A stretch of DNA of 64,000 nucleotides from Clostridiaceae bacterium (GTDB lineage: Bacteria > Bacillota > Clostridia > Oscillospirales > Acutalibacteraceae): positions 34,880 to 98,879 of the forward strand of contig JAEERC010000048.1 in the NCBI GenBank assembly GCA_016285645.1, written 5' to 3'. Position numbers and translations under genes: made by a program. The notes beneath the pieces are model-generated. The model saw only the letters and a program-made list of their open reading frames with translations. It was not told the origin of the DNA and ran no database searches. This document shows positions 30,030 to 35,099 of the stretch, in pieces; position 1 is the first letter of the stretch; every line of letters begins with the position of its first letter.

Positions 30030-33000
30030 ATGAAAACCGGTAAAAAGGCAGTTGCCGTTATTCTTGTGCTGGCTCTTATGCTCAGTATGTCTGCAATAAC
30101 GGCGAGCGCTATGCAGATTTTTGTCAAGACTCTCACGGGCAAAACCGTCACTCTCGAGGTTGAGCCGAGTGATTCGATTGACGCTGTAAAAGCGAAGATT
30201 CAGGATAAAGAGGGCATTCCGCCCGATCAGCAGCGGTTGATTTTCGCGGGCAAGCAGCTTGAGGACGGTCACACCCTCGCGGATTACAATATCCAGAAGG
30301 AGTCCACCCTGCACCTTGTGCTCCGCCTGAAGGGTGAATCTGAGGGCGACGGCTCGGAGAATAATCCCTACCTGATTTCGGATTATGAGGGCCTTCTTGA
30401 TTTTGCCGAGAAAGTTAACGGCGGCGAGACAGGCGTTTACGCCGTGCTTGTCAGCGATATTGACGCCTCCGCTTCGGTCGAGGCGAACGACTGGACTCCC
30501 ATCGGGAATTATACAAATAAATACACCGGCACATTTGACGGCCTCGGTCATAAAATAACCGGGCTTACTTTCAACAACCCGAATCAGAGTTACGCCGGCC
30601 TTTTCGGCTGTGTCGGCGAAGGCGGTAAAGTTCAGAATGTCGGTCTTGAAGGCGGAAGTATTACCGGATTATATAACGTCGGCGGTGTTGCAGGAAGAAG
30701 TTACGGCACGGTAACGGGCTGCTATAACACGGGCGATGTTTCCGGCAATAAATTTGTCGGCGGCGTGGCCGGATATAACTATGAAGAAACAATCGAAAAC
30801 TGCTATAACACGGGCGATGTTTCCGGTTCTGATCTTGTCGGCGGCGTGGTCGGATATAATAATAGCAGCAGCACGATTTCAAACTGCTATAACACGGGCA
30901 GTATTACTGCAACAGGAGACTTTGCTTTTGTCGGCGGCGTGGTCGGAGAGAATTATATTAGCAGCACGATTTCAAACTGCTATAACACGGGCAGTGTTAC
31001 TGCAACAGGAGGCTCTGCTTCTGTCGGCGGCGTAGTCGGAGAGAATAATAACAGCAGCACGATTTCAAACTGCTATAACACGGGCAGTATTACTGCAACA
31101 GGAGACTCTGCTTATGTCGGCGGCGTGGCCGGAGAGAATTTTATGAGCAGCACGATTTCAAACTGCTATAACACGGGCAGTATTACCGCACAGGGAAACT
31201 ATGCACGTGTCGGCGGCGTGGTCGGGTATAATTTTGCTAACAGTTCGGTTAAAAACTGCTATAACACCGGCAGAGTTACCGCACAGGGAAACGATGCACA
31301 TGTCGGCGGCGTGGCCGGAGATAATTATCTTGAAAACAGTTCGGTTGAAAACTGTTATTATGACTCGGACAGAGTCACCGGTATTCCCGCAATAGGGCAC
31401 GAAAGCAGTGCAACACACACCAATGTCAAAGGTCTCTCCACCGCCGATATGACCGGCACAGCCGCAATCGGAACAGCTCATAATCAAATGAATTTCAGTG
31501 ACACAAGCGTGTGGCTTGTGCGCGAAAGCGACGAGTTCTATTCATACTATCCGCATCTCAAGGGCTTCAATCTTGACAAAAACAGCAATCAGATTTTGGC
31601 GGAAAACATCCGTATGACCGACTGGCCCGCGCGCAAGGCACAGGAAAATGTGCGCGAGATTTCAAACTATGAAGAGCTCAAGGCATTTGCACAAGAGGTA
31701 AACAACGGCAGTTTTTCTCTCAATGGCATTATTGTTAAAGACATTGACGCCTCCGCTTCCGCATCGGCGAACGACTGGACTCCTATCGGTAATGATTATG
31801 ACCATCAATACACCGGCACATTTGACGGCCTCGGCCATAAAATAACCGGGCTTACTTACAACAACCCGCAACAGAGTTACGCCGGCCTTTTCGGCTATGT
31901 CGGTGAGGGCGGCACGGTGCAGAATGTCGGGCTTGAAGACGGCAGTATAACAGGAAATAACTTTGTCGGCGGCGTGGTCGGATATAACGAGAAAGGAACA
32001 ATCGAAAACTGCTATAACACGGGCGATGTTTCCGGTTCTGATCATGTCGGCGGCGTGGTCGGACTCAGTGACGGCACAGTCACAAACTGCTATAACACGG
32101 GCAATGTTTCCAGCAGTGATGATGTCGGCGGTGTGGTCGGATTTATCAGAATTGAAAGAACGGTCACAAACTGCTACAACACGGGCGATGTTTCAGGCAG
32201 CCGTAATGTCGGCGGCGTAGTCGGATTTATCTCTAATAACGCAGAAGTCAAAAACTGCTATAACACGGGTGCTGTTTCCGGCACTAAGTATGTCGGCGGC
32301 GTGGCAGGATTCAACGCAAACGAAGGAAAGGCAAGCAACTGCTATTATGACAGCGACAGATGCACAGCTTCAAAGGCATTCGGCTTTGGCTCGGGCACAA
32401 ACGTCACCGGCCTCACAACCGCGCAGATGACCGGCGCAAACGCGCTTGACAATATGGTCTTTGAATATGAAGCCGGCGAAGAAAACCCCTGGCTGACCAA
32501 AGCCGACGGAGCTGAAGACGGCGGCAATTACTGTTGGTTCTATCCGCACCTCAAGGGCTTTGCTTATGACAGAACTTCGGCTGCTGAAGACTGGCCCGCG
32601 AAAGTTGAAATCACAGTTGCCTTGAGCGACGGTAATTCATGCACATACGACGGCGAGGAGCACGGAGTGTATGTCACAGTCGGCGACACATCCGTTCCCG
32701 AAGGCATGACGGTTAACTATCAGAAATATGAAAACGGCCAATGGAAAGATATACCCAGCGTCCCCTCCGCAGACCCTGGCAACTATAAAATGGAAATAAG
32801 CTTCGGCGAAGAAACTGTTACAAAGTATTTCACAATTCTTGATCCGGCTACTGATTATACAGTTTCTTATTATAAAAAGACCGGAGAGGAAACTACGGAA
32901 TCCGTTGACCCGATCGACGCCGGCGATTACAAGGCGGTAGTGACTTTTACAGATACAGGTCACGCTCCCATAGAAAAAGAGTTCAAAATTACACCCAAAT

Positions 33001-35099
33001 CTGTCACTGTAACAGCCGCGAGTGAGGATTTCACCTATGACGGCACGGCGCACAGCAATAACGGATATGAAGTCAGAGGCCTTGTGGGAAGCGATGCAAT
33101 TACCGCTGTTGTTACCGGCAGCATTACATACCCCTCCGAAAGTCCGGTGCCGAATGTTATAGAGAGTTACAGCTTTACGGGCAGTCCGGATAATTACAAT
33201 GTAACAACAGTAAACGGCGAACTGACAATGTCAAACGCTTCGAAAGAAATCACCATCACCTCGGTAAGCAGGGAGTGGACCTATGACGGCAGTGCTCATT
33301 CAGACAATACTGTTACGGTAACAGGCGGCAGTCTGTTTGAGGGTGATGAACTTGTGGCGGAAGCGACCGGCAGCGTAACAAATGTCAGTGACACGGCAGA
33401 GGGCAACAATATAATTGCCGACGGCTATAAGATCATGCACGGATATACGGACGTTACCGACAACTATGAGATTACAGCGGTCAGCGGCACGCTGAAAATC
33501 ACCCCCGCGTCCGTAACTCTTACCGCGAACAGTGCAGCGGAAACCTATGACGGCACGGCGCACAGCAATAACGGATATGAAGTCAGAGGCCTTGTGGGAA
33601 GCGATGCAATTACCGCTGTTGTTACCGGCAGCATTACATACCCATCCGAAAGTCCGGTGCCGAATGTTATAGAGAGTTACAGCTTTACATCGGGCAAAGC
33701 GGGCAATTACACTGTAACAACAGTAAACGGCGAACTGACAATGTCAAACGCTTCGAAAGCAATCACCATCACCTCGGCAAGCAGGGAGTGGACCTATGAC
33801 GGCAGCGCTCATTCAGACAATACTGTTATGGTAACAGGCGGCAGTCTGTTTGAAGGTGATGAACTTGTGGCGGAAGCGACCGGCAGCGTAACAAATGTCA
33901 GTGACACGGCAGAGGGCAACAATATAATTGCCGACGGCTATAAGATCATGCACGGAGATAAAGATGTTACCGAAAACTATGTAATTACAGCGGTCAACGG
34001 TACGCTTACAATAAACCCCGCCAAAGTAACGGTCACAATCACGGGCAAGCATAATTCGGCGCCCTATGACGGCAGAGAACACATTGTATCAGATTTTAAT
34101 GCTGAACCCTCCGACCCGCTTTACAGATGTACCGGTGAAACTCTCGATTTCAATTTCACCGGCACTGCAAAGGCAAGACGCACCGATGCGGGAACAACAT
34201 ACATGGGTCTTACCGATTCTCAGTTTGTAAACAAAAACGCGAACTTTGATGTAACATTTGATGTTACGGACGGATATCAGACAATAGTTCCGATCAGTGT
34301 TGATGTTACAGTTAAAGGCAACAGCGCGACGGCGGACTATGACGGCAATGAAAAGAGCGTAACGGGCTACACCGCAAAGGCGAGCAATTCTCTCTATGAT
34401 GTTGAGAATGATATTGAATTCAGCGGCACTTCCGAGGTAAGACGCACTGAGCCCGGCACCGAAAGCATGGGACTTTCCGCAAGTCAGTTCACAAACAGCA
34501 ACGAGAACTTCAATGTAACATTTACTGTTGAAGAGGACGGAAAACTGACCGTCAACCCGGTTATCAAATTTGTTAACGAAGACGGCACCGAGCTTCAGAG
34601 CGGCGCGGTCGCCCTCGGCTCAACTCCCAAATACACGGGCTCAACACCCGAAAAAGCGGCATCGGACGGCAACACCTATGAATTCACCGGCTGGAGCCCC
34701 GAAATAACCGCGGCAACCGAAAACGCGACCTACACCGCGACTTACAAAGCGGTTCCCATTAAAATTGACCTCGGCGAATTTGAAAGCACAACGGGCTACA
34801 AAGAGGAACAGACCTTCACGGTTGACACAAGCGACCTTCCCGAGGGCGCGGAAGTCCACTGGTTTGTAAACGGCGAGGATGTAGGCACGGGCGAAAGCTA
34901 CACGGTAGAAGACCCGACCGATGACTACACCGTTCAGGCGAAAGTCGTTGACAAGGACGGCAATGTCATCGCCGAAAGCGAAGAGCAGAAAGTCGAAGTC
35001 AAAAACGGCTTCTTCGACCGTCTCAAAGCCTTCTTCGCGGAGTTAATCGAAAAAATCCTCGGAAAAGCGATTGCGGAACTTCTTACATCAATTTGCTGA
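30030..35099 (+). CDS. Secreted ubiquitin-GLUG-YDG multidomain surface protein
   Basis: 1689 residues. Residues 1-27 are a signal peptide (KK charges, hydrophobic core, ending ASA). Residues 28-103 are ubiquitin, starting with its own Met1: relative to human ubiquitin, recalled from memory, only positions 13 (V), 22 (S), 24 (D), 25 (A), 54 (H), 57 (A), 74 (K) and 76 (E) differ; all seven lysines, the L8-I44-V70 patch, H68 and R72 are kept, but the end is K-G-E, not R-G-G. Then two blocks, each opening with a DWTPIG...[13 protein letters not shown] segment followed by GLUG repeats with NCYNTG cores (seven repeats about 208-441, four about 637-771, each closed by NCYYDSD). From about 860 to 1511 follow YDG/MBG-like Ig domains (TYDG motifs), then an InlB-B-like repeat (about 1511-1578), an Ig-like domain and an amphipathic C-terminal helix ([20 protein letters not shown]). 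No LPXTG; how it stays attached, if it does, is unclear. Function is inferred only: a surface or secreted factor that may contact eukaryotic (host, fungal or protozoan) ubiquitin partners. Confidence 0.93.
33033..34020 (+). repeat. 510-bp internal tandem duplication
   Basis: Within the ubiquitin-domain gene, copies starting at 33033 and 33543 are almost identical for about 430 bp (for instance GGCACGGCGCACAGCAATAA in both) and then diverge after ATGCACGGA. The unit encodes 170 residues, i.e. two YDG-type domains, and indicates recent duplication or gene conversion. Confidence 0.85.

Follow-up and report, generated by a model that had tools for sequence, protein, structure and literature searches.

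Ubiquitin at the predicted mature N-terminus of a surface-type protein from a Clostridiaceae bacterium, and related proteins with predicted signal peptides in other bacteria

We analysed a ubiquitin-encoding gene in a stretch of 64,000 nucleotides (the window, meaning that whole stretch) on contig JAEERC010000048.1 of a Clostridiaceae bacterium, which is probably gut-dwelling. The open reading frame at 30030-35099 on the forward strand is real: it encodes 1,689 amino acids, starts with ATG and has, as read in the sequence, a Shine-Dalgarno-like AAGGAGG upstream (30016..30022, +). Its first 27 codons (30030..30110, +; MKTGKK...AITASA) were predicted as a signal peptide by custom scripts applying a hydrophobic-core and AxA rule, and these residues are typical of such a peptide in their charge, their hydrophobic core and their AxA end. 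By this sequence rule, the signal peptidase I cut is predicted directly before Met1 of a ubiquitin domain of 76 codons (30111..30338, +; residues 28-103), which was identified by Pfam, alignment and structure comparison and ends in LKGE, not LRGG. After ubiquitin the frame runs on for 1,586 residues. A GLUG-repeat stalk, predicted to be beta-rich, comes first (30339..32603, +; Pfam Glug, BLASTP to the C73 protein described below, and an AlphaFold2 model of residues 28-330), followed by a repeat region with MBG_2 domains (32604..34757, +; Pfam, best stretch 33513-33740) and by a C-terminal module with an amphipathic-looking tail (34758..35096, +), recognized in a search of the own genome and probably serving as an anchor. 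The order is thus signal peptide, ubiquitin, GLUG stalk, and the claim of a preliminary description of this DNA, that ubiquitin lies in frame behind a bacterial signal peptide, agrees with the open frame and with the prediction for the first 27 residues.

The window protein was scanned with Pfam at E up to 0.01. The ubiquitin family (PF00240) matched with E 4.6e-30 and 103.6 bits against a cut-off of 25.4, Glug matched ten stretches at E 0.01 and three at E 0.001, and MBG_2 matched two stretches with 25.2 bits against a cut-off of 25. The preliminary description had listed GLUG, YDG-type and InlB-like surface modules. GLUG stands, the repeats called YDG-type match the MBG 'YGX type' instead, and no InlB/Listeria-Bacteroides repeat model matched at E 0.01. 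Neither Pfam nor NCBIfam named a family for the C-terminal module, and inspection of the last 60 residues by eye revealed no LPXTG-type signal.

Residues 28-103 align with human ubiquitin free of gaps and share 68 of 76 residues with it, exactly as claimed earlier, the differences being I13V, T22S, E24D, N25A, R54H, S57A, R74K and G76E. This count agrees with the 91% identity over 75 columns to PDB 1ubq. The L8/I44/V70 hydrophobic patch and all seven lysines are unchanged. An AlphaFold2 model of residues 28-330, built from five sequences (mean pLDDT 77.7, pTM 0.66), shows the strand-helix order of ubiquitin, with pLDDT below 50 at ubiquitin residues 63-67 and 71-76. Judged by identity (66-92%), each of the 50 PDB matches listed for the model is a ubiquitin chain or fusion, and most of them have a TM by target of 0.80-0.95. 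The domain ends in LRLKGE and not in the exposed LRLRGG of the conjugation type. With no diglycine, and with the stalk following in frame, this ubiquitin head cannot be a conjugation donor. A PF00179 (E2) profile search of the own genome gave no match, and its control likewise gave none.

The own genome (2.63 Mb; completeness 97.9%, contamination 0.08%) contains two ubiquitin matches in all, the other being a second ubiquitin fusion on another contig. By BLASTP this second protein (the C73 protein) is 46.8% identical to the window protein over residues 1-858, ubiquitin included, and the two stalks are homologous. The codons had been described as host-like; the codon fit of the ubiquitin part indeed lies inside the range of ten neighbouring genes, and 26% of 76-codon stretches fit no better, although its GC3 is higher (0.67 versus 0.54). 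Relatives of the last 113 residues, 29-82% identical, occur at 34 further places in the own genome, most of them in long open frames; an end-of-protein position was checked for the second ubiquitin fusion only. Two of the 35 places (window included) are in ubiquitin proteins, and because the genome has only two ubiquitin matches, the others belong to proteins without ubiquitin. The C-terminal module is therefore likely a common attachment module by its sequence relatives, and the head resembles one among many exchangeable tips.

A scan of one genome per species (84,980 species) found at least 437 stretches encoding relatives, of which the best 80 were kept. The fusion occurs in other genomes, including those of Oscillospirales; its absence from every other genome had been named in the preliminary description as a refutation. 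Such genes are present in 8 of 45 genomes of the window's genus. A match was found in 11 of 200 genomes of the wider family, several of them diverged (own genome included in both counts), and in 5 of 398 across the phylum, only one being close besides the own. The trait is sporadic but concentrated in the genus of the window. Ubiquitin genes were also found in 10 of 80 genomes of a Fibrobacter genus, in 2 of 6 of the genus of Dyella OK004 and in 4 of 29 of the genus of Ruminococcus albus 8, one of which (by position R. albus 7) has three. All 14 carrier genomes checked hold one ubiquitin match each. Three of 72,556 plasmid records match, the only close one being R. albus 7 pRUMAL01, which encodes an annotated 'ubiquitin family protein'. 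A phage origin was looked for by tblastn against 50,697 phage records, without a match.

For the signal-peptide count we collected 86 genes and kept the 70 with a signal-peptide-like segment. The 16 omitted (L013, L015, L016, L019, L026, L032, L033, L041, L045, L046, L050, L063, L066, L068, L073 and L081) include some that look eukaryotic, some truncated on the upstream side and freshwater actinobacterial ones that begin at Met1. The diverged matches from the family (L084-L095), the phylum match L176, the viral contigs (L164-L175) and genus matches that are copies of loci already included (L126-L129, L131, L133) were likewise kept out of the 70 and of the site counts. A small-x-small motif ends directly before Met1 in 69 of the 70 genes, with at most 32 at any other offset, and the strict motif [AV]xA does so in 61, against at most 10 elsewhere. 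These figures carry a slight bias, as the alanine preceding Met1 was part of the search query. In a second set of 29 genes, obtained by a Pfam profile search in four genera and free of bias toward the cut position, 28 have a signal-peptide-like segment and 27 have the motif exactly at Met1; L206, with LFAT ahead of Met1, and L225, whose open frame is too short on the upstream side, depart from this. For eleven of the 70 genes the record title names a strain or isolate and not a metagenome-assembled genome (MAG): R. albus 8, Cohnella, Conexibacter, three Dyella, Rhodoferax, Rhodobacter, Methylolobus, Denitrificimonas and Clostridiales NK3B98. Titles of single short MAG contigs were not used for taxonomy.

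Several loci have layouts of their own. Contigs of freshwater actinobacterial type (L016, L046, L041, L045, L073, L081) carry genes of about 228 amino acids that start at the ubiquitin Met1 without an in-frame signal peptide, the complete ones ending in ..FTG; in L016 (8001-9387) and L046 (7293-8684) a tandem pair of such genes is surrounded by ordinary cellular genes. In the family of the window, L086, L087 and L089 encode much-diverged exported ubiquitin-like domains, also right behind the signal peptide, and in L084 and L085 a ubiquitin-like domain is flanked by repeat modules. Twelve viral contigs (L164-L175) hold relatives, several resembling bacterial genes with signal peptides and others the ubiquitins of eukaryotic viruses. 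Three of them (L168, L169, L170) are near-identical and were filed as viral; they encode a signal peptide, ubiquitin and a tail that by eye is IPTL-CTERM-like, and they look more bacterial than viral. On pRUMAL01 (L180, 1953-8273) the ubiquitin gene lies within a run of small secreted-looking proteins that share a 'YTVTIP ... AGTYTDTLTF'-like region, with a dockerin protein nearby. Similar runs flank the ubiquitin genes in L047 and L069, and such runs possibly form a multi-subunit surface structure.

Downstream of ubiquitin, Pfam found no domain common to all 70 proteins. Searches with Pfam and NCBIfam identified an autotransporter beta-domain in 10, Listeria-Bacteroides repeats in 7, a T9SS sorting tail in 6, Glug in 6, SLH in 3 and IPTL-CTERM in 2; the autotransporter, T9SS, SLH and IPTL-CTERM families have export or surface roles. 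A pattern search of the 62 complete C-termini found an LPXTG-like signal in two, and the three Dyella proteins are stand-alone exported ubiquitins. The same head thus appears on unrelated surface-export modules, and these unrelated routes to the cell surface argue that it works outside the cell.

We then compared how the parts of these proteins change. Within the genus (11 genes, 55 pairs pooled) uncorrected divergence was 0.569 per synonymous and 0.061 per non-synonymous site, and dN/dS ranged from 0 to 0.159 in the 51 pairs with finite dS. Between the paralogues of the own genome identity is 95% in ubiquitin, 35% in the signal peptide and 50% in the next 300 residues. Judged by these substitution patterns, strong purifying selection acts on the genus ubiquitin, in contrast to the diverging signal peptide and stalk. 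Across 44 non-redundant heads the mean identity to human ubiquitin was 0.946 for core residues, and 0.942 and 0.977 for the I44 and F4 patches respectively; it was 0.971 for the lysines, 0.842 for the remaining exposed sites and 0.392 for the tail. Patches and lysines together differ from other exposed sites with p = 0.0027, and the I44 patch alone with p = 0.038. L8/I44/V70 is intact in 62 of the 70 heads and all seven lysines are kept in 56. The diglycine is kept in nine, eight of which have more protein after it. Most heads thus retain the patch and have lost the diglycine.

To place the window head we used a eukaryotic reference of 305 ubiquitin units, taken from a protein search in 5.8 billion sequences in which 120 of 1,634 matches were listed. 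These are long proteins, the named ones eukaryotic and mostly polyubiquitins and many without an organism name, so that the reference is biased and may include non-eukaryotic entries. The window head is nearest to other Oscillospirales heads, sharing 72 of 73 residues with L003, compared with 68 of 73 for the best of the 305 reference units, and its immediate source was therefore probably another bacterium. A25 occurs in 19 and G20 in 11 of the 70 bacterial heads, and neither in any of the 305 reference units. In a tree of 131 rows and 72 columns, in which 89 of the 126 inner branches are open, the bacterial rows group together, with 17 label changes against 43.6 in shuffles. The window head belongs to a group of 21 rows (SH-aLRT 94), of which 19 are bacterial (Oscillospirales, Fibrobacter) and the other two are units of one reference protein. 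With 72 columns the tree cannot date or count the entry from eukaryotes, and it is compatible with one origin or several. The preliminary description had suggested transfer from a eukaryote. An ultimate eukaryotic origin is plausible on sequence grounds; a single exotic transfer does not fit, as similar genes occur across many bacteria. The simplest history is one or more entries from eukaryotes followed by transfer among bacteria, and the head appears to travel as a module between bacteria and between carrier proteins.

The genomic setting was read in ten congener loci around rpsI (L145-L150, L160-L163). L145 stops about 240 bases past rpsI and says nothing on synteny. In none of the other nine does the window's ubiquitin gene lie downstream of rpsI, and because their open frames there look unlike one another, no orthologous insertion site can be defined. 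In the window (29683 onward) and in L146-L150 and L160-L163 the region 3' of rplM-rpsI holds differing genes, and the stretch is apparently a hypervariable spot. Downstream of rpsI, L161 encodes a GLUG protein that has a signal-peptide-like start and lacks ubiquitin.

What does the head do? We favour, with a probability of roughly 0.45, a reading in which the window protein carries ubiquitin at its mature N-terminus on the cell surface, where it could not be conjugated and would be bound non-covalently by eukaryotic ubiquitin-recognising proteins. The protein would be exported and cut so that the mature form starts at ubiquitin Met1, and the C-terminal module would attach it to the surface. 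As L8, I44, V70 and the seven lysines are kept, non-covalent recognition by ubiquitin-binding domains would be the most direct use. The partner may belong to rumen or freshwater protists or to an animal host and would be encountered through contact, after uptake or on lysis. Several carriers are from rumen, gut or freshwater by record title, habitats that are rich in protists, and this pointer to protists is suggestive only. Extended to the whole collection, the same idea becomes more tentative still: a mobile ubiquitin head in many phyla, exported, dead as a donor, otherwise native and with a free Met1, would be joined to the surface-export module that each species has, pass between bacteria and act as an adaptor for eukaryotic ubiquitin-recognising machinery, likely that of protists grazing on these bacteria or living next to them.

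Several points weigh against recognition by eukaryotic partners. The patch is intact in only 22 of the 29 genes of the less biased set and complete in 9 of the 11 genus genes, and the diverged exported relatives L086, L087 and L089 are changed at patch positions. Because the best 80 of at least 437 stretches were kept, the 70-gene set is biased to similarity and its overall conservation is inflated. The patch and core sites were assigned from what is commonly known of ubiquitin rather than computed. In a control of 205 non-redundant units of the eukaryotic reference, identity was 0.939 in the core, 0.859 in the F4 patch, 0.842 at lysines, 0.806 in the I44 patch, 0.784 at other exposed sites and 0.541 in the tail, the same order of site classes, so the pattern may be partly inherited and not selected in bacteria. 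To our knowledge, protists have no established extracellular ubiquitin receptors. Several carriers are from freshwater or soil, judged by title or by the usual habitat of the genus, so not all are animal-associated, and the use at a host interface suggested in the preliminary description would be one possibility only.

The alternative that survives best, though we judge it rather unlikely, is that the head does no more than form a very stable N-terminal cap or a secretion or folding module, with no ubiquitin-specific partner. Its place at the N-terminus predicted for the mature protein in 27 of 29 genes, its joining to unrelated carriers and a conservation pattern that resembles the eukaryotic reference and could be inherited would all suit a cap. 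However, the exposed patch and lysine sites are conserved like the buried core and above other exposed sites, and the changes within the genus are mostly synonymous, a constraint at exposed sites for which a pure cap has no need.

It is also unlikely that the head is antibacterial in the manner of BfUbb, the secreted ubiquitin of Bacteroides fragilis, binding a target in related bacteria and blocking their growth, with the stalk making this contact-dependent. A periplasmic peptidyl-prolyl isomerase has reportedly been named in later work as the target of BfUbb. The sporadic presence within genera fits a competition gene, and the Dyella proteins are stand-alone exported ubiquitins as BfUbb is. 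BfUbb inhibits 13 of 40 B. fragilis strains; it is an exported protein, cut at ubiquitin Met1 and without the terminal glycine (PMC5705921). Bovine ubiquitin, stated to be identical to human, was reported as inactive against BfUbb-sensitive strains even at a much greater dose (PMC5705921), which makes it more plausible that a near-eukaryotic head is aimed at eukaryotic proteins than at simple killing. BfUbb is 63% identical to human ubiquitin (PMC3352274), against 89% for the window head, and the large carrier is unlike a diffusible toxin.

We consider it improbable that the head is an acceptor, from whose Met1 or lysines eukaryotic ligases extend chains, or, in members that keep LRGG, a deubiquitinase-sensitive tag. 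The seven lysines kept in most heads, the predicted free Met1 and the GG-keeping heads followed by more protein would fit; ligase contact requires cytosolic access, and the LKGE end makes release by deubiquitinases unlikely for the window protein. Finally, some contig-scan matches without a signal peptide look eukaryotic (for example the polyubiquitin-like L033), but an assembly chimera or eukaryotic contamination in the window was rejected, with a residual probability close to nil, in view of the second copy in the own genome, the relatives in congeners, the one match per carrier genome and three in one Ruminococcus genome, and the bacterial-type signal peptide, ribosome site and codon fit.

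In the proteins analysed, ubiquitin stands at the predicted tip of surface-type carriers and is little changed while signal peptide and carrier turn over. If bound by eukaryotic partners, it would be a cell-surface ligand in bacteria and not only a cytosolic tag of eukaryotes; at stake is whether bacteria turn a signalling protein of eukaryotes into a ligand directed at protists or hosts. Since carriers from several phyla are in culture by title (Ruminococcus albus 7 and 8, Dyella, Cohnella, Rhodoferax, Conexibacter), display, partners and deletion phenotypes are directly testable.

Among the papers listed in a search of open-access titles and abstract starts, none deals with ubiquitin-headed bacterial surface proteins; the BfUbb authors mention 'a few bacteria' with such genes. 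Oscillospirales GLUG-repeat proteins such as that of L161 have the stalk and layout of the window protein without the ubiquitin head, and sortase-anchored GLUG adhesins share the repeats but have an LPXTG-type end not seen in the window protein. RUMAL_RS21475 (WP_013483628.1) of R. albus 7 pRUMAL01 is similar in its signal-peptide-like start, ubiquitin at the predicted mature N-terminus and a secreted-type C-terminal region; it differs in its length of 246 amino acids, its different carrier and its place in a run of small secreted-looking proteins, and its automatic annotation gives a family name only. The secreted ubiquitin effector of the nematode Globodera rostochiensis also joins signal peptide, ubiquitin and a C-terminal extension, but it is eukaryotic and its 12-residue extension is cut off in the plant (PMC5705921), whereas the window protein has a large stalk and a changed ubiquitin end. 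With BfUbb the window protein shares a signal peptide cut at Met1, reported for the former and predicted for the latter, and the loss of the diglycine. BfUbb is a stand-alone protein of 76 residues, whereas the window head is followed by 1,586 residues of surface-type carrier, and the earlier claim that the fusion is a different arrangement is borne out by the open frame of 1,689 amino acids. In the parts of the literature that we found, BfUbb is the only characterised bacterial ubiquitin, and the window protein represents a second, broader arrangement.

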